64,000 nucleotides of DNA from Winogradskyella aurantiaca. GTDB lineage: Bacteria > Bacteroidota > Bacteroidia > Flavobacteriales > Flavobacteriaceae. Under the pieces are notes generated by a model. It was given only the letters and a program-made list of their open reading frames with translations, was not told the origin of the DNA and searched no databases. Numbering within the stretch: the first letter of the stretch is position 1; each line of letters opens with the position of its first letter. Shown here in pieces: positions 3,893 to 14,295 of the stretch. The translations under genes and the position numbers were made by a program. The DNA lies in contig NZ_QKTV01000003.1 in NCBI RefSeq assembly GCF_003362725.1, positions 124,001-188,000 of the forward strand, given 5' to 3'.

Positions 3893-4780
3893 TTACTTCA
3901 TAGTAAATTCAGAAGATGAAACAAGCGTTTTATTATTAAAAACGTTAACGATGTAGCGTCCTTTAATAAACTTGTCATCTTCAGATTTATTGATGAATTC
4001 ACAAACATTTAAATTTCTGTTTTCATAGTTAAATCTACTGATCAGACTGTAATTTAAAATCTGATCTTCAAATTGAATTTGATCATTTGACCCTAACACA
4101 TTGTTTTCAGGATCAATAACCTGTACATATAATTCTTTATCGCCTGCTTCAGCAATAGTATTCTTAGCTACTGTAAAGCAAACTTTTATCTTGTCACTTC
4201 TTCTAGCACGTTCAGTTGGAATTTGTTTACCGCTATTTCTTTCAATAATACCCATTCCTTTTAAGCCAACAGTCTGGAGAGCAGAAGCATCTTCAACTGC
4301 AGTTGCTAATTCCGAATTTTGAACCAATAAGGAATCTGTAAACATAGCACGTTCTGCAAGTTGAACCTGTGTACTATCCAATGAAGTGGCCAATAACTCA
4401 TTTTCTACGCGCAGACTATCATTCTGTGCTAAAAGTACATCCATTTCCTCTTGTAAGGCCATATACTTCTTCTTGTATCGCCATAAGCTGTTAACACTGT
4501 TTTGAGATACCTTTAAAGAATCCATTAGGCCTTGAATACGTTCTCTAGCCTCAACTAAGTTTTCATTGGCTACTTCGTTCTCCTGAATGGCCAAATCATA
4601 TTGTTTTGCCATACTGTTAAGATCATTCATAACCTGCTCTTTCTCGCTTGTTAATAATGCCTCACTTTCTTTTTTGTCTGAATAAAGCTTAGAGGCAAAA
4701 AATGCGGTTCCTAAAAAAAGTACTACTAAGATCCCCAATCCGACTTTAAGTCCGGTATTCTTTCCGTTTGAACTTTCCAT
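3893..4780 (-). CDS. Membrane-anchored coiled-coil protein of unknown function
   Basis: No function recognised. The 295-residue protein has a single membrane segment near the N-terminus (about residues 11-30, VGLGILVVLFLGTAFFASKL) after a short polar leader. A long heptad-rich coiled coil follows (about 35-160), then a compact C-terminal domain of about 110 residues starting near GMGIIERNSGKQIPTERAR and rich in beta-strand-like sequence. The positive leader and single anchor suggest the coiled coil and the C-terminal domain lie in the periplasm, but orientation is inferred. It sits between hutI and hutG on the opposite strand, and nothing in its sequence suggests a metabolic role. Confidence 0.8.
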   Translation of the reverse strand: MESSNGKNTGLKVGLGILVVLFLGTAFFASKLYSDKKESEALLTSEKEQVMNDLNSMAKQYDLAIQENEVANENLVEARERIQGLMDSLKVSQNSVNSLWRYKKKYMALQEEMDVLLAQNDSLRVENELLATSLDSTQVQLAERAMFTDSLLVQNSELATAVEDASALQTVGLKGMGIIERNSGKQIPTERARRSDKIKVCFTVAKNTIAEAGDKELYVQVIDPENNVLGSNDQIQFEDQILNYSLISRFNYENRNLNVCEFINKSEDDKFIKGRYIVNVFNNKTLVSSSEFTMK

Positions 4781-4821
4781 AATTTGATTGTTTTTAAGTT
4801 ACTGATAAATTTGATTTGTGT

Positions 4822-4829
4822 TAATTTTG
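4822..4829 (+). promoter_or_regulatory. Possible -7 box for hutG
   Basis: TAATTTTG matches the Bacteroidota -7 consensus TAnnTTTG and lies 50 bases before the hutG start. No clear TTG -33 box is at the expected spacing, so this is tentative. Confidence 0.35.
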
Positions 4830-4878
4830 AAGCTAAGACTTAAACCTGTTATAACTGTTTACGGCCTAATTTATTGTA

Positions 4879-5886
4879 ATGGAATACCTTCAATTATTTT
4901 CTCAGAAAGATCTGAAGTCCCTCTTAAAAACTCGCAAAGGTGAAACCAAATTTGGTGAACAAATTAAGCTGTTACCTAACCTCACCAACATATACGAAGA
5001 CTTAAAGGATTTAGATGTTAGATACGTAATTTTTGGTATCGAAGAAGATATTGGTGTTCGTGCAAACCTCGGTAATCCAGGCACTTACAAATGTTGGAAG
5101 GCCGTAAAAAAAATCTTAATAAATATTCAAAGTAATACCTATACACATGCCAAAAAGGTATTAATATTAGGTTCATTAAACTACAAATCTGCCGATGATG
5201 ACATAAATCAAAGTGTATCCAATATTAAAAATTTACGCTCAAATGTTGAAAAAATTGATGCAGATGTCACCTATCTGGTTTCTCAAATAATTAAAGCAGG
5301 TAAGATTCCAATTGCAGTTGGCGGTGGCCATAATAATAGTTATGGTATGATTAAGGGTTCTGCTTTTGGCTTAAACCAACCCATAGCGGTAATTAATATA
5401 GATGCACATAGTGATTTTAGACCAGAGGAAGGGCGGCATAGTGGTAATGGGTTTAGTTATGCCCTTGCAGAAGGCTTTCTAAAAAAGTACTTTATTATGG
5501 GACTTCATGAGAATTTTACATCCAGATCTATTTTATCCACAATGAAAAAAATGAAGGCCGTTGATTTTGTCTCTTATGAAGCTATGGAGGTGAGGAGTGA
5601 AATTGGTATGAAAACAGCTATTGAATCTTGTATCAAGCATGTAGACGGTTTAAAGGTTGGGTTGGAGATTGATTGTGATGCCATTATTAATGTTCCAAGT
5701 AGTGCTGCCACACCTGCCGGTTTTACTGTAAAGCAGGTTAGACGAATGCTACACTCCTTTGGTCAAACCAGAGACTTAACTTACTTACATATTTGCGAAG
5801 CCATTCCTTCAAAGAAGTCCAAAGACAAGATTGGTAAATTGATCAGCTACTTAATAACTGACTTTATTAGAGCGCATGAGTCCTAA
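4879..5886 (+). CDS. hutG: Formimidoylglutamase (arginase family)
   Basis: HutG hydrolyses N-formimidoyl-L-glutamate to glutamate and formamide, closing the histidine degradation route. The protein is a ureohydrolase with the complete binuclear manganese site: His151 in GGGHNNSYG, Asp175/His177/Asp179 in NIDAHSDFR, and Asp265/Asp267 in EIDCDA. The length (335 residues) fits the family, and HutI nearby favours this over agmatinase or arginase. The gene overlaps the following GNAT gene by 11 bases, so the two are probably translationally coupled. Confidence 0.88.
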   Translation: MEYLQLFSQKDLKSLLKTRKGETKFGEQIKLLPNLTNIYEDLKDLDVRYVIFGIEEDIGVRANLGNPGTYKCWKAVKKILINIQSNTYTHAKKVLILGSLNYKSADDDINQSVSNIKNLRSNVEKIDADVTYLVSQIIKAGKIPIAVGGGHNNSYGMIKGSAFGLNQPIAVINIDAHSDFRPEEGRHSGNGFSYALAEGFLKKYFIMGLHENFTSRSILSTMKKMKAVDFVSYEAMEVRSEIGMKTAIESCIKHVDGLKVGLEIDCDAIINVPSSAATPAGFTVKQVRRMLHSFGQTRDLTYLHICEAIPSKKSKDKIGKLISYLITDFIRAHES

Positions 5887-6340
5887 CATCATATCTTTCG
5901 ATCATAAATATGCTAAGGATTTTCACGATCTTAACATCGAATGGTTGGAAACGTATTTTTATGTAGAGCCATATGATAAGGAAGTACTGAGTAAGCCCGA
6001 TAAATACATTATAAATAAGGGTGGACAGATCTTCTTCCTACTTGAAAAAGATGCTGTTCTTGCCACAGCAGCCTTAATGCCAACTGAAGATCCAACGGTG
6101 TTAGAACTAACAAAAATGGCGGTAACCCCAAGGGCAAGGGGGGAAAAGTTTGGCCAGAGACTACTTCAGTACTGCATAGATTTTGCAAAATCTAAAGACT
6201 ACGCTGCACTGATGCTATACTCCAATACCATATTGGAAAATGCCATTCATTTATATCGAAAATATGGCTTTAAGGAATTAGAGCTTGAAAAGGACAATCC
6301 CTACGAACGCGCCAATATTAAGATGCTTCGTAAGCTCTAA
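5876..6340 (+). CDS. GNAT family N-acetyltransferase
   Basis: A 154-residue acetyl-CoA-dependent acyltransferase. The central acetyl-CoA binding region reads KMAVTPRARGEKFGQRLL, close to the R/Q-x-x-G-x-G/A signature of the GNAT fold, and the C-terminal part ends with the usual LYRKYGF segment. The start codon lies inside the last codons of hutG, so the two form an operon. Substrate unknown; the coupling to hutG may simply be a shared transcript. Its stop overlaps the stop of the convergent minus-strand gene by four bases. Confidence 0.85.
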   Translation: MSPNIISFDHKYAKDFHDLNIEWLETYFYVEPYDKEVLSKPDKYIINKGGQIFFLLEKDAVLATAALMPTEDPTVLELTKMAVTPRARGEKFGQRLLQYCIDFAKSKDYAALMLYSNTILENAIHLYRKYGFKELELEKDNPYERANIKMLRKL

Positions 6341-8034
6341 TTAGAATTAGATTTCAAAGAATCAATTTTACGTTGTAAAGCTTCAATTTGCTCAGTATTA
6401 TCTGTGACTGGTGGTACTATTTTTGTTGAATCGGTTTCCCTCTCAGCAATATCGTTATCACGCACATCATCCTGATAATAGAAACCTAAGTCCTTTTCAC
6501 TAGAGCGCCAGGCCTCATTTAATTGGTCATACACCGCTTTATCCCATCCACTGGGGTGCTTAACATCTATCCAAACCACATCCCTGTATTCACTGTCAAT
6601 AAGAACCAAGTCTGGAGTAGCTGAACCATCAAACTGTTCAGCATTAGTGTCACTAATTGATGAAACCGTTCCAAGAAAGAACATCCGCTTTCTTCCAGCA
6701 ATTTCCTTAATATAAGGTCGAAACTCAACGGGTGTGTTAGCTGACCAATCGTACTCTTTACGAGATTCTTGAACCTTCAAAGGCATGGCAGAAACGCCAG
6801 CATAGCCTTGTTTCTTACTAGCGTGATTATAGTAATAGAGTTTATCTGTACCATCTGCTGGCACCATCACACTAAAACTCAAACTTGTGCGCTCCTCTCC
6901 TATTGGCTCCAAACCAAACCAATGGTATAAACCACTGTAGGCATTGGTATTGGAATTAGCAAAATCAAAATCAGTCACATAAGGTTGTTGGTTTTGATCC
7001 TTGGGCATCATAGGTATTTTAACCACAGTTTTCATATTCCATGGAAGTGGATCTGCAAAACCTCCTAGAAATTTAAGAGATTCGGCCTGTAATCTGGATA
7101 CCTTCTCTGCAAGAATGTTTTGCTTGCTCAAATAGTCATAGGAATCCAATTGATCTGGTGGAATAAACGTTCCTTTTCCAATGGATATGCGCTCGAGGTA
7201 ATCCTTAAAATCGTGTTCCCCATTTTCAATTACCATGACACCTCCAAATGTAGGATATGGAAAAAAGAAGCCTTCCCACTTAATTAGACTCACTACTTCA
7301 ACCCACTCTCCTTTATCATTTTTCATGTAGTAGGTATCACTGGGCTCATAATTAAATAGCATCCAGGGATTGAATCGCTGCACAACGGCATTATAGGTGT
7401 TTCTGCTAAACATTAAGGACTCTCCTATTGCAAAGACAACCTCAATACGATTTTCGTTTGAAAATCTGGGAAATGGCGTGGTACTACTAACTGAAAACAC
7501 TTCTTCAGTGTTATTCATGATGCGTTGCATGGAGTACTTCTCACTTGGCTGAATAGCCATAGTCCACCGGTTTTCACGATCAACTCTAACTAAATGCGGT
7601 AAGGATACATCTTTAGTCTCCCCCACACTCTCGTTGGCCATAGACAAGATATTTCTTAGTGGCTGAATGCGCTCGTTTTGAGTTAAGGGTAATTCATGAA
7701 TTTCAACCTTGTTTAAATTCTTGTAGACATTGTAAGTCTTCATATAATCATAAAGCTGATAATGCCACCCAAACAAATACATCAATCCATAGAACAATAC
7801 CAATATCCCCAAAATTCCCAGGCGACGTCCAGTACTTGGAGTATTTCTGAATCTTGAGAGTCCAAAGACAAGAATAATGGTGGCAACAAGAATGACAAAA
7901 AAGTACTTTCTAATAAATAATAAGGCCGGTTGGTAATCATCTCTTAAAACAAATAGGGCTATTAATACAATTATGGCTCCAATAATGACATTGCGCTTTT
8001 GTTTAGATCCTTTATTCCAATACGATTTTATCAT
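6337..8034 (-). CDS. Unknown membrane protein, last gene of six-gene AAA+ operon
   Basis: No family recognised. The 565-residue protein starts with three predicted membrane segments (about residues 15-30, 44-59 and 72-90), followed by about 470 residues of soluble sequence rich in aromatic and beta-type segments. A short coiled-coil-like tail (TEQIEALQRKIDSLKSNSN) ends the protein. No catalytic motif is visible. It follows the 176-residue membrane protein by 15 bases and is the distal gene of the minus-strand operon that begins at 14295. Inference: a membrane platform or sensor for the module encoded upstream, given that the first four proteins look soluble. Confidence 0.75.
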   Translation of the reverse strand: MIKSYWNKGSKQKRNVIIGAIIVLIALFVLRDDYQPALLFIRKYFFVILVATIILVFGLSRFRNTPSTGRRLGILGILVLFYGLMYLFGWHYQLYDYMKTYNVYKNLNKVEIHELPLTQNERIQPLRNILSMANESVGETKDVSLPHLVRVDRENRWTMAIQPSEKYSMQRIMNNTEEVFSVSSTTPFPRFSNENRIEVVFAIGESLMFSRNTYNAVVQRFNPWMLFNYEPSDTYYMKNDKGEWVEVVSLIKWEGFFFPYPTFGGVMVIENGEHDFKDYLERISIGKGTFIPPDQLDSYDYLSKQNILAEKVSRLQAESLKFLGGFADPLPWNMKTVVKIPMMPKDQNQQPYVTDFDFANSNTNAYSGLYHWFGLEPIGEERTSLSFSVMVPADGTDKLYYYNHASKKQGYAGVSAMPLKVQESRKEYDWSANTPVEFRPYIKEIAGRKRMFFLGTVSSISDTNAEQFDGSATPDLVLIDSEYRDVVWIDVKHPSGWDKAVYDQLNEAWRSSEKDLGFYYQDDVRDNDIAERETDSTKIVPPVTDNTEQIEALQRKIDSLKSNSN

Positions 8035-8049
8035 TCTGTCTAAATTATC

Positions 8050-8580
8050 TTAAAGTAACCCTTTATCTTTTAAACGCTCACGAGCGCTTTTTCCATCGTC
8101 TTTAGCCCTAGCTTCTTGTTTATCAATGACTTCTTCTTTAGGAGTTTCAGGTCTTAAATTCTCAATATAATCCTTACCCTTATCAATGGCTTCATCCATA
8201 ACATTGCCTATGGTGTCTCCATGCTCTTCAATTACTTTGGAGGACTTAAGAACAAAATTCGCAAGATAGGTACCCACAATAGTCCCTACCACGATAGATG
8301 AAAATGCCGAAACACCATTGTAGGAACCAAAGACTGAAATTGGCGTTACAAACTCCAGTACCAAAGCCACAATTAGACACATGGTAACTATAAAGATTAA
8401 TCTTGGGATAAAAGACTGTTTATAAACGAATCCTTTTGGATTGTCCTTAGACATCTGAAGCGCTTTGCTGTTTACGATTTTGTTTAGAGTTCTATAAGCT
8501 TTATTACTATTGGATTCTCTCCAATAAATAAAAATTCCTAACAATATGGCAGCAATAAAAATTACAAGTTCAAGTCCCAT
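8050..8580 (-). CDS. Small three-span membrane protein of the AAA+ operon
   Basis: A 176-residue protein of unknown function with hydrophobic segments at about residues 3-20, 57-78 and 91-110, and a highly charged C-terminal tail (about 115-176) rich in Lys, Glu and Asp. The tail could be a cytoplasmic docking surface. It is fifth in the six-gene operon, 36 bases after the 412-residue protein and 15 bases before the larger membrane protein. No cysteines or catalytic motifs stand out. Confidence 0.75.
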   Translation of the reverse strand: MGLELVIFIAAILLGIFIYWRESNSNKAYRTLNKIVNSKALQMSKDNPKGFVYKQSFIPRLIFIVTMCLIVALVLEFVTPISVFGSYNGVSAFSSIVVGTIVGTYLANFVLKSSKVIEEHGDTIGNVMDEAIDKGKDYIENLRPETPKEEVIDKQEARAKDDGKSARERLKDKGLL

Positions 8581-8616
8581 GGCCTTCGTATTTAGTTCTA
8601 TAAAATTAGTATCTAT

Positions 8617-9855
8617 TTACTCAATATTGTTACGGATGATACCAATAACCCAATCTCGTAGAGTATCGTCCCAATCTTGATAGCTCAAATAAAATTGTTC
8701 CTTATCATACCAGTACAAAAACAACACATCCAATGGCGAAATATTAATCAGTAATTGGTGAATGAGGTCACGATCATGAGGATTTAGTGATGAGTGTGGG
8801 TCTAAAAGCCCAAAAAACAAGGACTGATCAATTAGATCTTCCTTTTTGAAGGCATTACTTTTAGCTATTTTCTCAAGATATAACTCAACTCCCATCACCT
8901 TTTTACGGTCTTCTATAGTCAGTTTGTTTAAATAACTCCTAAATAAAGATTTACTTTCTAATATCTCTTCATACGAATGTTCTGGTTTGTTTACAAATTG
9001 AGAGAAATAGTATTTTTTAATACGATCATACCTTTTGGTACCTACTACTGCTTCTAGATCGTAAGAAATTATTTGATAATCCTCCAGTTTACGTATCAAT
9101 TCAGGCTGATTTATATGATAGACTAGAACATCATGAAGCGAATCGTTAATAGAGCTCTCGTAGGCCGTTTTATCTTCAAATACGACTATGGTCTTCACAA
9201 AATCTTTTAAGACATAGACCCCACCAAAGGCCCTGGAATAAAAGGAGGATACTGTATAATGTAAAGAATGCAGATTTAAATCCCTATTCCTAAGATCACC
9301 ATAGGTCTTGGCAGAATCCAATAATTGTTTCTGTAAATCCTCATCGATAAAATTATGACCTGTCGTAAACTGATCGACCAGCTGAAGTTGTTCTGCTTGA
9401 ACTTTATTAAGATCGTCGATTAGTCTAAAGGTGATGCTTACATCATCGTATTTGAGAATATCCAATGGCTCGTAATAAGCATCAATATCCTGGTCAAAGT
9501 CAATGCAAATAGCGGAATCTCTTGTGATATCACTAATCTTTTGACCGTGAGTTCTAAATACATGACGCATCATTTCACGATCAAAAGAATGAAATGGCAA
9601 ATAAACGGGCTTCCCTTTTTGTAAAGGAGAAATAATAATCCCATGCGGATTAGCATCTCCATGATTTAAATACTGAACATCAGCTTTCTCCTCAGCTATT
9701 TCAGGACTCCATCCAACACCATCTATAGAAAAACTACTGAGGTTGGTTTCCTTAAAACCTAGAGTCTTTAAACACTTATTGTAGCGGTCTACTAGCTTAC
9801 CACTAACAGGAATTAACTCACTCTGATATAAATTTGCAGCTTTAAGTTTGTCCAT
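8617..9855 (-). CDS. Unknown soluble protein of the AAA+ operon
   Basis: A 412-residue protein with no signal peptide, no membrane segment and no motif I can tie to a function. Residues ~60-100 (LNHGDANPHGIIISPLQ and PVYLPFHSFDREMMRHVF) are rich in His and could hold a folded core, but this is not enough for an enzyme call. The rest is largely alpha-helical in character. It begins five bases after the AAA+ ATPase gene stops, so the two are probably translated together and may act together. Confidence 0.75.
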   Translation of the reverse strand: MDKLKAANLYQSELIPVSGKLVDRYNKCLKTLGFKETNLSSFSIDGVGWSPEIAEEKADVQYLNHGDANPHGIIISPLQKGKPVYLPFHSFDREMMRHVFRTHGQKISDITRDSAICIDFDQDIDAYYEPLDILKYDDVSITFRLIDDLNKVQAEQLQLVDQFTTGHNFIDEDLQKQLLDSAKTYGDLRNRDLNLHSLHYTVSSFYSRAFGGVYVLKDFVKTIVVFEDKTAYESSINDSLHDVLVYHINQPELIRKLEDYQIISYDLEAVVGTKRYDRIKKYYFSQFVNKPEHSYEEILESKSLFRSYLNKLTIEDRKKVMGVELYLEKIAKSNAFKKEDLIDQSLFFGLLDPHSSLNPHDRDLIHQLLINISPLDVLFLYWYDKEQFYLSYQDWDDTLRDWVIGIIRNNIE

Positions 9856-9860
9856 AGTTT

Positions 9861-11825
9861 TTATTCCGATTTACCAAATCGCTCCCTTGCCTCCAATTCT
9901 ATTTGCATCTGACTAACTCTAGACTCAACCTTTCTATTAAAGTCTGTATCTGCTATTGTTGCTACATTATCCAGATAACGGATGACTTCTTGTCTACGAA
10001 TATCTGAGAAGTTGAGCCCTTTCATATTAGATTTCATTAACTCCTGAAGCATTCCAAACTTGGTGTCATAATTCTTATTGAAATACACTTCTGGATTCTC
10101 AAACCAATCCTTTTCCAAATCAAAATCTGTTAATCGCAATGAGATGGCCGATTGAATATTTCTTACATCTCTTGAGGAAAAAAATGGAAACACTTCTTGA
10201 ATGGATTTGTACAATGCGGCATAAAACATGTGATCATCTTCTTCATGAAGCTCATCAATCTTATTGAACACCTGTCGCACACGGTCCTCATTTGGGTCGT
10301 CGATCTGATCTAAAATATCACCCAAATTTTTAGCTAAACCTTGATCTTGCAAATATTTATAACCTTCGGGGTTATCCATATTTATAAATCCAGGCATGGT
10401 TTTCTGTAGCTTTTGCCACCATAAATAATCCTGATCAAGAAAATCATGTTCAGAACGCGCACCATCTATCTTAAACCTTCCCTGAACTCTTGAAATAACG
10501 GCCTTATCTAACATTTCGGGTAAGTTTGTAAACAGTCCTATAGAACTATTACCATAGTTGACCGCATAAGCCCCTTCAGTATATCTTAAAAATACACCAA
10601 TCACTTCTTTAACACCAGCGGACACCCCTTGTGCTGTGCGTTCCTGAAGATTATTCTCTGCATCATCAATAGGTGCAAAAATGATTTTTGACGGATCTTG
10701 AAGAGGTTTCATCCATTCCACCATTTTTTCCGCAGATCCTCCTTGAAATGTACTTATTAGGGTATCAGGCATTGGGTGAAACAGAAATGGTATATCCAGG
10801 TTGTCACAATGCTCTTTCAACCTAGTGGCAATAGCCGCAATCAGCATACTCTTACCTGTTCCTGGAATACCATATCCCATAAAGACTGGCATAAATCCAC
10901 CGAGTTCTTGAAATGGATTCTTCTTTTCTATAAAATCATAACTCAACAAACGTTCGGTTAATCGTCTGGCAAAATGTTTTGCATCTCTATTTCCAACGAT
11001 TTGCTCAAACTGGATCTTATTGAACTCAACACTTTTGGCGGCTCCATCAAACACATTGCTCCAACCAGAAATTGCAAAATCTGAATGCTCTAATTTATAA
11101 GTACGGTCTTCTATTGTTTCGGTGTATTCCAAAGTGGATTTCCTAAGTTGTATTTCAGCTATTAAGGCCTCAAAATAGACCACCGTAAAATCAACAACAT
11201 CCTGATCGCTTTTAATAAGATCGGGGTGACTTAAGTATTTATCATAATAGAACAAACTGCATGACAATCCCTTTAATGGACTTAAGAGAGACACTTCAGG
11301 AATTCCAGCAAACTTTTGTTTCATAACGCTAAGATCATCGGTTTCATGAGGTTTCAAGTCTGTTAAGATCTTGTAGGCAGAAGCATAAAGCATAAAAGCT
11401 GTAGCTGTATGCATTTTACTTTCGAACTCCCTTCTACCTTTTTGACCTAGAGTGGATCTCCTTTCTTGTAAACTGCTTAATCCTGACGCATCATAATAGC
11501 TATCACGTATCCATAAACCTAAAGTAATCCCCTCCTGAACTGCGTATAAAGTTTGATTTAATAATACTGGTAAAGCAACGGATTCGGGCAACAAACGTTT
11601 TTTTAACCCCAAAACCGTTTTGGACACCGAGGCTAATTGGGCTGCATTATTCCCATTATTAGCTCGGGATAAATACAACAAAATTGATTCGTCCTTGGTA
11701 TCACCGTCCCGATTTTTGGCACGCTGACTTTGTTCCCATTCTATACTTTTTAAATAGGAGGTCGCCTCGTCACGCAACATGTCGAGTTCAGATTGTTTTA
11801 TAGGAAATGTTGAATTATGTTCCAT
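9861..11825 (-). CDS. AAA+ ATPase with long N-terminal helical domain
   Basis: A 654-residue ATPase. Residues 1-300 are helical and of unknown family. The AAA+ module follows: Walker A GIPGTGKS at 319-326, a Walker B-like segment IIFAPIDDAEN at 381-391, a sensor-1-like Asn in LFTNLPEML near 434, and a probable arginine finger in SRVQGRF at 445-451. A C-terminal domain of about 190 residues completes it. The Walker B region reads Asp-Asp rather than the usual Asp-Glu. Members of this superfamily form hexameric rings that remodel proteins, but the target here is unknown. It is third in the operon, nine bases after the preceding gene and five before the next. Confidence 0.85.
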   Translation of the reverse strand: MEHNSTFPIKQSELDMLRDEATSYLKSIEWEQSQRAKNRDGDTKDESILLYLSRANNGNNAAQLASVSKTVLGLKKRLLPESVALPVLLNQTLYAVQEGITLGLWIRDSYYDASGLSSLQERRSTLGQKGRREFESKMHTATAFMLYASAYKILTDLKPHETDDLSVMKQKFAGIPEVSLLSPLKGLSCSLFYYDKYLSHPDLIKSDQDVVDFTVVYFEALIAEIQLRKSTLEYTETIEDRTYKLEHSDFAISGWSNVFDGAAKSVEFNKIQFEQIVGNRDAKHFARRLTERLLSYDFIEKKNPFQELGGFMPVFMGYGIPGTGKSMLIAAIATRLKEHCDNLDIPFLFHPMPDTLISTFQGGSAEKMVEWMKPLQDPSKIIFAPIDDAENNLQERTAQGVSAGVKEVIGVFLRYTEGAYAVNYGNSSIGLFTNLPEMLDKAVISRVQGRFKIDGARSEHDFLDQDYLWWQKLQKTMPGFINMDNPEGYKYLQDQGLAKNLGDILDQIDDPNEDRVRQVFNKIDELHEEDDHMFYAALYKSIQEVFPFFSSRDVRNIQSAISLRLTDFDLEKDWFENPEVYFNKNYDTKFGMLQELMKSNMKGLNFSDIRRQEVIRYLDNVATIADTDFNRKVESRVSQMQIELEARERFGKSE

Positions 11826-11834
11826 AGTTAATTC

Positions 11835-12881
11835 TTAATTGGAAACTGGCAGATCGGCCAGTTGAATTGGTGGTTTTGCAAGTTTGTTAATGCTGTTGGG
11901 GCTTTTATTATATAGCATTTGAATTATTCGATGAGGTGCCATTAAATATTGCTGCTTAATAATGTCACTCCATCTTTGCAAGACCTGTTTATTGAAAAAA
12001 CTGCCTTCTTTAAACTCGCTTCCCGAAAACACCTCGTCAATCTTCAATGAAAACGCATAAGATTCTAAAGGAATGTCCTTACGCCCAATACCATCAAGAA
12101 TGGCATGAGTAATATCATTTTCGTCTTTGGCAAATACATTGTGTAATGGACCTAAATCAATGCGTTTCATGTGTTTGGGATAGACGTCCATTAGTTTTCT
12201 GTCGATAGCGTAGGCCATACTATCTAAAGGCATTTTTCTATCCGCCGTCTGCCTAATAGCCTCGTAAATCTGTTGCCGTTCTTTCTGTGGATCCTTGCCA
12301 TTATAATCGAAATACATAAAGCATATGAAAGGTCTGTTGAGCGCCACATCATAAAAACTCCAGCTAGTCATGTACTGAGCCCTCACGTCCTCAGGAGATG
12401 GTAAAATTTTACCTTGAATAAATCGATTAAAGATATATTCCTGCTTAACGTTAGAATAATAAACAATAGATGCGGCCTGAAATAACCTGGATTTCCTAAT
12501 TGGCTCCTTTTTTCGCATCAAGGTGTCCAAAAATTCATGCTTAATCACTTCAATATCTGTAAGCTTATTAAGATACTCTTCTCTTAAAGCCAAGTCGTTA
12601 AACAGGTACCGAAACTCTAAATAATTGGGGAATCCAGAATCAGTAAGATCAATCTTCATATTATCCTCATCATCATACATATACTTAACGCGCATTGCCT
12701 CAATGGAATATAACAGCAAATCACAGTATTGCTTAAAAAAGCCCAATTCTTTATTAGAACAGAGCTGTTGCTGTTGCATTTTAACAATGAGTTCCTTAAT
12801 TGTAAAGTCTACCATTTGATGATAGAACACATACTGACTTTTAGAGTCTAATTGTGCAGAATCTAAGGGAGTAACAATCAT
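11835..12881 (-). CDS. Unknown soluble protein of the AAA+ operon
   Basis: A 348-residue protein of unknown family when started at the ATG at 12881 (MIVTPLDSAQL...). A TTG at 12923 would add 14 residues; the ATG is preferred because the extra residues look like untranslated leader. It is mixed charged and aromatic, without signal peptide, membrane segment or known catalytic motif. It is second in the operon, between the coiled-coil protein and the ATPase. Conserved function is supported only by its tight position. Confidence 0.75.
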   Translation of the reverse strand: MIVTPLDSAQLDSKSQYVFYHQMVDFTIKELIVKMQQQQLCSNKELGFFKQYCDLLLYSIEAMRVKYMYDDEDNMKIDLTDSGFPNYLEFRYLFNDLALREEYLNKLTDIEVIKHEFLDTLMRKKEPIRKSRLFQAASIVYYSNVKQEYIFNRFIQGKILPSPEDVRAQYMTSWSFYDVALNRPFICFMYFDYNGKDPQKERQQIYEAIRQTADRKMPLDSMAYAIDRKLMDVYPKHMKRIDLGPLHNVFAKDENDITHAILDGIGRKDIPLESYAFSLKIDEVFSGSEFKEGSFFNKQVLQRWSDIIKQQYLMAPHRIIQMLYNKSPNSINKLAKPPIQLADLPVSN

Positions 12882-12954
12882 TAAGATTAATTTGAATCTA
12901 TTTGGTTTAAAGTCGTAACCCAAATAAAGAGCTACGACTTATAAGTTGAATTTA

Positions 12955-14295
12955 TTAGGACAAAAGATCTTCCTCTACATCAGGTGAAGGGCTCGTTTTA
13001 TCAGGGGTCTCACCCCCATCGGGAGCCGAACTATCTGACTTATAGTACTCTTCAAATATTTCTTTCATATCAATGCCGTAACGTTCAGAAAAGTTTTTCT
13101 GGATATCGACATCCTTTTCACGTATTTCCTGAAGGGCCTCTGCATAACTACTATAAACACCCTGCATAACTTTCTCGTGAACGGGAATGTTGTCCATCAT
13201 TTGTTGACGTGCCTTAGCACTTGCCGTATGCATGGCAGCAAGGGTCTCACCAATATGTTCATCAGTTTTTACTCCTAAGTGTTCCAGAATTGCGGCAAAC
13301 TCCTGATCAGTTCTGGCCTTGAGCGCTACTACATAGCCATCGTAATACTTCAAACGCTCTTCTGTATCACTCTTGAGCTTGGCTCTATGCGTTTGTAAAT
13401 TACTTCTAAGGGATGTCAATACCTTTATAGTTAAGTTATGTTTGTGAACGAAACTATCCTTTGAAGCTGCCAACGTCGTATATGCATTCTTAAGACCTTC
13501 CAACTCCTCAACACTTTGTTCTAGTGTTGTCACCTTACCAACAGCTTCTGCATATTCAGCTGACTGCTTATCTACAATATCTTCAAGTGCTTGTCTGGCT
13601 TGTTTTAACTTGGCGTACTCTGTCTCTAACTTATCTTCTACTTCTTTCTTCTTCTCAAGAGCACGAGTATGGTTTTTTGTTGCTTCTACTATAGCGTCCT
13701 GAAGGCGATCCTCTACTTCTTTAATTTCAACCTCACGATCTTTTAAGCGCTTAACAGCGGCTTGACTTTTAAATGATAATTCATTTAACAAGGTTTGTAC
13801 ATCAGCAGATTCTATACGCTGTTGGAAAAGCGCTTTCGCCTTATTATCGGCAGCATCGCGATCTTTCTGTGCATTCTTTAATTCCTCCTCTGCCTTCGCA
13901 ATCTTGCTCTTACGTCCCCACAAATTATTCCACCAGGTATCCGGTTTGTTTTCAGCATCCTCAAGCTCTACTTTAGCACGTTCTAAGCGTTTGATGGCAT
14001 TATCAATGATCTTCTGCTCATCAGCATTTAGAGACGAGAAATTCTCAAAAATAATTCCCACTTCGTCCTGATAGTCCGTTAAATCTTTGATGGCGTCTAG
14101 CAAGGTTGTTCTATCCTTTTCTGCCATATGAACAACATCATCCAGGGTAGCATTTAAAATCTTTTGGCGCATCTCAGGATCATCCTCCTGGGCCAGTTTA
14201 GATTTCATAGTATCAATAGCCTTTCCCCAATTGACATCTACTTTCTCAGTTTTTTCATTGGAATTAGTTTCTAATAAATCGAACTCGTCGGACAT
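12955..14295 (-). CDS. Long coiled-coil protein, first gene of the AAA+ operon
   Basis: A 446-residue acidic, highly charged protein with no signal peptide or membrane segment. Heptad-like helices extend over most of residues 85-300, interrupted by a tryptophan-rich patch (DTWWNNLWGRK, near 130) that could touch a membrane or partner. The C-terminus is a disordered Asp/Glu/Ser/Pro tail. The overall look resembles filament- or membrane-scaffold proteins such as PspA/ESCRT-III or TelA, but I see no sequence proof of homology. It is the first gene of the operon, with 160 bases upstream before the divergent MBL gene, so the operon promoter should be there. Confidence 0.75.
   Translation of the reverse strand: MSDEFDLLETNSNEKTEKVDVNWGKAIDTMKSKLAQEDDPEMRQKILNATLDDVVHMAEKDRTTLLDAIKDLTDYQDEVGIIFENFSSLNADEQKIIDNAIKRLERAKVELEDAENKPDTWWNNLWGRKSKIAKAEEELKNAQKDRDAADNKAKALFQQRIESADVQTLLNELSFKSQAAVKRLKDREVEIKEVEDRLQDAIVEATKNHTRALEKKKEVEDKLETEYAKLKQARQALEDIVDKQSAEYAEAVGKVTTLEQSVEELEGLKNAYTTLAASKDSFVHKHNLTIKVLTSLRSNLQTHRAKLKSDTEERLKYYDGYVVALKARTDQEFAAILEHLGVKTDEHIGETLAAMHTASAKARQQMMDNIPVHEKVMQGVYSSYAEALQEIREKDVDIQKNFSERYGIDMKEIFEEYYKSDSSAPDGGETPDKTSPSPDVEEDLLS

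Follow-up and report, generated by a model that had tools for sequence, protein, structure and literature searches.

AAA+ ATPase partners of PspA and Snf7 proteins are described in the accessible part of a survey of phage shock protein (PSP) systems (PMC11237479), and a classic AAA+ ATPase is likewise part of ESCRT-III/Vps4, known as Cdv in archaea. With these systems we compared a module of six genes from the marine flavobacterium Winogradskyella aurantiaca, located on the minus strand at 6337-14295 of the window, i.e. the whole analysed stretch of 64,000 nucleotides (contig NZ_QKTV01000003.1, positions 124,001 to 188,000). The module encodes the coiled-coil protein cc446, a protein of a family without annotation (U348), an AAA+ ATPase other than those of the survey, a DUF6638 protein, and the membrane proteins TM176 and TM565. 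Like the PspA/Snf7 operons in that part of the survey, it unites genes for a helical protein, for a classic AAA+ ATPase and for membrane proteins in an operon, and a role in membrane upkeep is plausible for both. In contrast, its coiled coil is not PspA or Snf7 by Pfam and profile comparison, the module tends to avoid PspA, and U348, DUF6638, TM176 and TM565 are not among the components of the operons described there. With ESCRT-III/Vps4 the module shares the classic AAA+ fold, the arginines of the second region of homology (SRH) and a single coiled-coil partner, but it lacks MIT, Vps4_C and Snf7 domains, its Walker B motif reads Asp-Asp and not Asp-Glu, and its N-terminal region is long (about 260 amino acids). 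The module is most suitably classed among the classic AAA+ remodelling machines in the broad sense, as a system without a name whose partner set matches nothing known. The preliminary description of this DNA had failed to match the genes to a named system, which we confirm: we found none, and the module matched none of the known clusters to which a function is assigned.

That the six genes form one system is strongly supported by our comparative data. Orthologues of the ATPase with 75-84% identity were found in 12 of the 36 other Flavobacteriaceae genera sampled. Outside this family, none of the genomes of the order that were sampled contained a strong orthologue, and the remaining matches were weak and limited to the AAA domain. 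The loci read in 12 relatives carry the six genes in identical order; three of them (L034-L036) have different flanking genes and one (L032) stops inside the operon. A collection-wide scan for the ATPase yielded 80 loci, mostly from named Flavobacteriaceae, among them Winogradskyella, Polaribacter, Gelidibacter, Lacinutrix, Psychroserpens and Tenacibaculum. Of these loci, 68 span 19 kb or more, and 66 of them contain all six genes in one order. Furthermore, the profiles of the ATPase, the coiled coil and TM565 were positive in the identical 13 of 60 related genomes, the genome analysed here included, and negative in the other 47, weak AAA-domain-only matches being set aside. Because of the conserved order and the shared presence, chance co-location is rejected. 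Pairwise distances across 53 loci gave correlations of 0.54-0.78 within the module and of 0.32-0.60 between module genes and the neighbouring ABC-F gene, which indicates co-evolution of the module genes. The preliminary description had regarded separate occurrence in relatives as a result that would speak against its view of one machine. This was not seen in the relatives sampled, and the view itself gains strong support from the kept order, the all-or-none presence, the co-evolution and a core that recurs in a second phylum and in a phage. The module is a single-copy feature, adjoined by the same ABC-F gene in 58 of the 80 loci. The ATPase was present in 102 of 351 Flavobacteriaceae genomes sampled, and among 297 sampled Bacteroidota genomes only 4, all of them Flavobacteriaceae and including this one, contained DUF6638.

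As stated in the preliminary description, the open reading frames of all six genes lie on the same strand; from the first gene to the sixth the gaps measure 73, 9, 5, 36 and 15 bases. The absence of interrupting genes holds in this window but not in general: in 52 of the 80 related loci a NUDIX hydrolase gene of the YffH/AdpP family is located between the ATPase and DUF6638 genes (e.g. L030:8415-9005). The best match of the inserted hydrolase was NudK (GDP-mannose pyrophosphatase), just below the equivalog cut-off. In two Tenacibaculum loci (L125:11158-17557 and L107:12083-19060) an insertion splits the operon after the ATPase or the NUDIX gene; named by eye from the sequence, it codes for a CheB-CheR-PAS-like signalling protein of about 1490 amino acids and two AraC-type regulators. 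An apparent loss of the distal genes in these loci was discarded, as both carry the insertion: in L125 the DUF6638 gene follows about 7.9 kb downstream, beyond the insertion, and in L107, where the insertion follows the NUDIX gene, the stretch ends before any distal gene.

A core of four genes was also found outside the Bacteroidota. Searching plasmid records with the ATPase by tblastn revealed long relatives, 26-29% identical, in rhizobia and on Vibrio replicons about 0.9 Mb in size; each relative adjoins a DUF6638 gene. The three loci read from rhizobia and the two from Vibrio share the order coiled coil, U, AAA, DUF6638. The flavobacterial profiles matched the Vibrio coiled coil with E=2e-10, the U protein with E=1.6e-21 and the ATPase with E=1.9e-75, and the DUF6638 profile matched Sinorhizobium DUF6638 with E=4.7e-48, all values referring to a search of nine proteins; hhalign connected the coiled-coil family across the phyla with a probability of 98%. 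A DUF2333 membrane protein is encoded after DUF6638 in Sinorhizobium and Shinella. One strain of Sinorhizobium meliloti carries an endonuclease-domain gene and the IS4-type insertion sequence ISRm16 between the ATPase and DUF6638 genes (L044:10851-12596), and in two Vibrio species (L045 and L048; replicons of 882-938 kb) a copy of mfd directly follows DUF6638. In S. meliloti, SMc02733 presumably lies near the choline transporter genes, beside which the module is located. A ChvI-binding fragment from a screen of the S. meliloti ChvI regulon maps inside SMc02733 (PMC3687685). The envelope regulator ExoS/ChvI might touch the module in this species.

A scan of viral contigs yielded one copy of the module, with the order DUF2333, coiled coil, U, AAA, DUF6638 on one strand, in the 359-kb record IMGVR_UViG_3300035698_035310. 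Four such scans returned this same single record, and GenBank phage records contained no further copy. Topoisomerase II subunits of the T4 type, a clamp loader and PhoH are encoded in the record, which is therefore interpreted as a T4-type jumbo phage. A terminase check with phrog_2 was uninformative, as the model matched 13 of 14 control genomes. Conserved in two phyla and acquired by a giant phage, a gene set of this kind almost certainly encodes a real machine.

Two further observations were made at about 60-73 kb of the phage record (L155). An 886-amino-acid homologue of the Major Vault Protein is encoded at L155:10549-13209 (MVP_shoulder, E=2.9e-22); a limited search surfaced no jumbo-phage literature mentioning a vault protein. 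A gene cluster at L155:16-7882 codes for OmpA, VWA and NMT1-OmpA fusion proteins, an ABC permease and an ABC ATPase, and resembles sets reported together with PspA/Snf7 operons in the PSP survey (PMC11237479).

Pfam matches above the cut-off were obtained for two of the six proteins, the ATPase and the DUF6638 protein. The former (654 amino acids; 9861-11825, minus strand; Pfam AAA, E=1.7e-9) belongs to the classic clade of AAA+ ATPases and has an altered catalytic site. Its Walker A motif GIPGTGKS (residues 319-326) occurs in 80 of 80 orthologues, and PGTGK is invariant across the phyla. The Walker B motif is IDD (residues 386-388) in all aligned members, with Asp-Asp instead of Asp-Glu; 79 of the 80 orthologues share PIDDAE, and the jumbo-phage copy reads FDD. 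The form hhhhDE with a catalytic Glu is thus not present in this ATPase. In the SRH, R446 and R450 are invariant across the phyla. A profile spanning both phyla matched CDC48/VCP, proteasomal and Vps4 ATPases in the PDB, the latter with E about 1e-5, and was needed for this purpose, as a profile built from flavobacteria only matched nothing. Neither MIT nor Vps4_C domains were detected by Pfam at E<=1. NCBIfam and PADLOC searches of the module proteins gave weak AAA-domain similarities and nothing further. They concern IetA (PADLOC E=1.2e-5, 22.9 bits; NCBIfam 15.2 bits against a cut-off of 510); the likeness to IetAS is confined to the AAA domain, and no gene for the subtilisin-like protease IetS is present in the operon. 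A known defence system was therefore not assigned, the PADLOC matches being weak and limited to this domain.

The coiled-coil protein cc446 (446 amino acids; 12955-14295, minus strand) is the most conserved component, with 81-90% identity in 12 relatives. Its AlphaFold model is almost wholly helical with a long hairpin (166-238/246-339), at low confidence (predicted local distance difference test, pLDDT, 64). A loop WWNNLWGRK (residues 121-129), holding three of the four tryptophans of the protein, is kept in 71 of 76 orthologues, and far homologues show a hydrophobic-basic GIF-K stretch in the matching region. The C-terminus is acidic and ends in DLLS. Homology of the coiled coil to ESCRT-III or PspA was rejected by three approaches: Pfam gave no match to PspA_IM30 or Snf7, hhalign against eight PspA sequences gave 0.0-0.3%, no better than reversed controls, and in Foldseek Vipp1 appeared only among generic coiled coils (E=0.16, TM 0.17/0.27). 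PDB searches with coiled-coil profiles likewise yielded nothing or generic coiled coils. Homology to TelA was suggested by eye from the GIF/K-rich motif and was also discarded, as hhalign against six TelA sequences gave 2.3% in the wrong register and Pfam no match to TelA (PF05816). The likeness to TelA/Ter tellurite resistance consists in a cytosolic helical protein of similar size and this superficial motif, whereas TerB, TerC and TerD genes are missing from the operon.

U348 (348 amino acids from the ATG at 12881; 11835-12881, minus strand) was modelled confidently as an alpha/beta protein (pLDDT 88.7). Foldseek searches of the model against the PDB and the BFVD viral structures returned nothing at E<=0.001, and the predicted fold may be new against solved structures. 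The product of the fourth gene (412 amino acids; 8617-9855, minus strand) is soluble and belongs to DUF6638 (PF20343, E=1e-32), with 114 bits against a Pfam cut-off of 27, and it aligned with the rhizobial, Vibrio and phage members of this family. In the literature searched DUF6638 was not mentioned, and DUF2333 (PF10095) received one passing mention.

The remaining proteins, TM176 (176 amino acids; 8050-8580, minus strand) and TM565 (565 amino acids; 6337-8034, minus strand), contain three membrane segments each according to hydropathy, the three of TM565 being N-terminal to a large domain; none was predicted in cc446, U348, the ATPase or the DUF6638 protein. This topology fits the suggestion of the preliminary description that the last two proteins serve as a membrane platform. 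Together with cc446 and U348, both lacked Pfam matches above the cut-off. TM176 ends in a tail SAR[ED]RLKDKG (KSARERLKDKGLL) that is kept in 69 of 75 orthologues. As the rest of TM176 is the least conserved part of the module, the tail is suggested to be a docking peptide. TM565 shows 62-79% identity in relatives and is present in exactly those genomes that carry the ATPase; from the charge distribution, its large domain is probably periplasmic. A relationship of TM565 to DUF2333, which adjoins the core in Sinorhizobium, Shinella and the jumbo phage, was considered and rejected (no Pfam match; hhalign 0.5% with a comparison alignment of three sequences only).

We put it slightly short of an even chance that the products of the six genes make up a single inner-membrane-attached machine, powered by ATP, that maintains the membrane or envelope and whose AAA+ ATPase acts on a coiled-coil assembly. 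The ATPase would form a hexamer and use ATP, perhaps slowly since the catalytic Glu of Walker B is an Asp, and would build, dismantle or remodel the coiled-coil assembly on the cytoplasmic face of the inner membrane. The Trp-rich basic loop of cc446 may touch lipid, and the DUF6638 protein and U348 may be adaptors linking ATPase and coiled coil. TM176 would recruit the complex by its conserved tail, and TM565 would transmit a signal or force to the periplasm. Most likely, the machine would maintain the inner membrane or envelope or protect it from stress, as PspA-type systems do elsewhere. The preliminary description had compared the ATPase and the coiled coil with Vps4 and ESCRT-III; as a tentative analogy, though not as homology, this provides our best guess for the mode of action.

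The relation of the module to PspA is consistent with such an overlapping role, although as a weak tendency. Of the 351 Flavobacteriaceae genomes, 26 contain PspA and 102 the module; only 2 contain both, against 7.6 expected (p=0.007 by genome). Several points weigh against the proposed machine. The exclusion of PspA, uncorrected for phylogeny, weakens to p=0.01-0.05 by genus, and two thirds of the family genomes have neither PspA nor the module. The low-confidence model of cc446 has no specific structural relative, its most hydrophobic windows lie outside the Trp loop, and lipid contact is deduced from composition only. The Vibrio loci read have no adjoining membrane protein, so that the membrane partner is not a fixed component of the operon.

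More tentatively, the module may represent an undescribed and widely distributed AAA+ membrane machine with exchangeable membrane partners, standing in for the unrelated upkeep systems of the PspA and ESCRT-III type. Its core would then join a DD-type AAA+ ATPase and DUF6638 to a coiled-coil protein of a new family and a protein of new fold, and Bacteroidota, Pseudomonadota and at least one jumbo phage would have these four proteins in common. Four of the six module proteins have no annotated relative and DUF6638 is unnamed in the literature searched; a previously unnamed cellular system is now testable. Should the system maintain membranes, the problem solved by PspA, Vipp1 and ESCRT-III would have a second solution, unrelated to theirs. 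A large group of marine flavobacteria would have an identifiable envelope-maintenance system, and the question would arise what a jumbo phage gains from carrying it.

The alternative that survives best, although we consider it unlikely, is an assembly or activation chaperone. The AAA+ ATPase and its three soluble partners would mature or recycle an envelope complex built on TM565 or DUF2333, with the coiled coil as scaffold and no membrane remodelling, comparable to client maturation by AAA+ ATPases of the MoxR or Rubisco activase type. Such a role would agree with the constant four-gene core, whose membrane partner varies by lineage, and with the large conserved domain of TM565, which is gained and lost with the other module genes. 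However, the most conserved protein is the coiled coil and not a membrane protein, which points to the coiled coil as the main substrate or framework, and a common client is not shown, since TM565 and DUF2333 are not detectably related.

In comparison with this chaperone, two other explanations are clearly less probable. True homology to ESCRT-III/Vps4 or PspA, with cc446 as a divergent ESCRT-III or PspA protein and the ATPase as its Vps4, is improbable in view of the missing PspA_IM30, Snf7, MIT and Vps4_C matches, of PspA profile comparisons resembling reversed controls and of Vipp1 ranking only among generic coiled coils; it draws on Vps4 among the PDB matches of this classic-clade ATPase, on the mostly helical partner and on the occurrence of AAA+ partners of PspA/Snf7 in other bacteria (PMC11237479). 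Equally improbable is a surface-polysaccharide or nucleotide-sugar module controlling glycan export or assembly, with the NudK-like enzyme as metabolic partner: the NUDIX gene lies within the operon in most loci, but it is lacking in this window, in about a third of the loci and in those from rhizobia, Vibrio and the phage, and no glycosyltransferase, flippase or polymerase is linked. We give the least credence to an anti-phage or conflict system based on an IetA-like ATPase, as the weak similarity to IetA, the patchy presence (102 of 351 family genomes) and the copy in one phage are opposed by the lack of a toxic effector, nuclease or protease partner, by negative PADLOC results for the other members, by the single copy in a mostly stable chromosomal neighbourhood, and by slowly evolving genes, unlike those of defence systems.

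Compared with these alternatives, the inner-membrane machine outlined above remains our preferred reading, and the surroundings of the operon add minor observations. A scan for sigma-70-type promoters upstream of the operon gave at most chance-level results, Bacteroidota promoters being outside the scope of the scan. The genes on its 3' side are often syntenic with the operon, yet they are missing from loci with other flanks and are therefore not part of the system. In the window, they are located at 3893-6340 and code for a coiled-coil membrane-anchored protein on the minus strand and for an arginase-family enzyme and a GNAT acetyltransferase on the plus strand.

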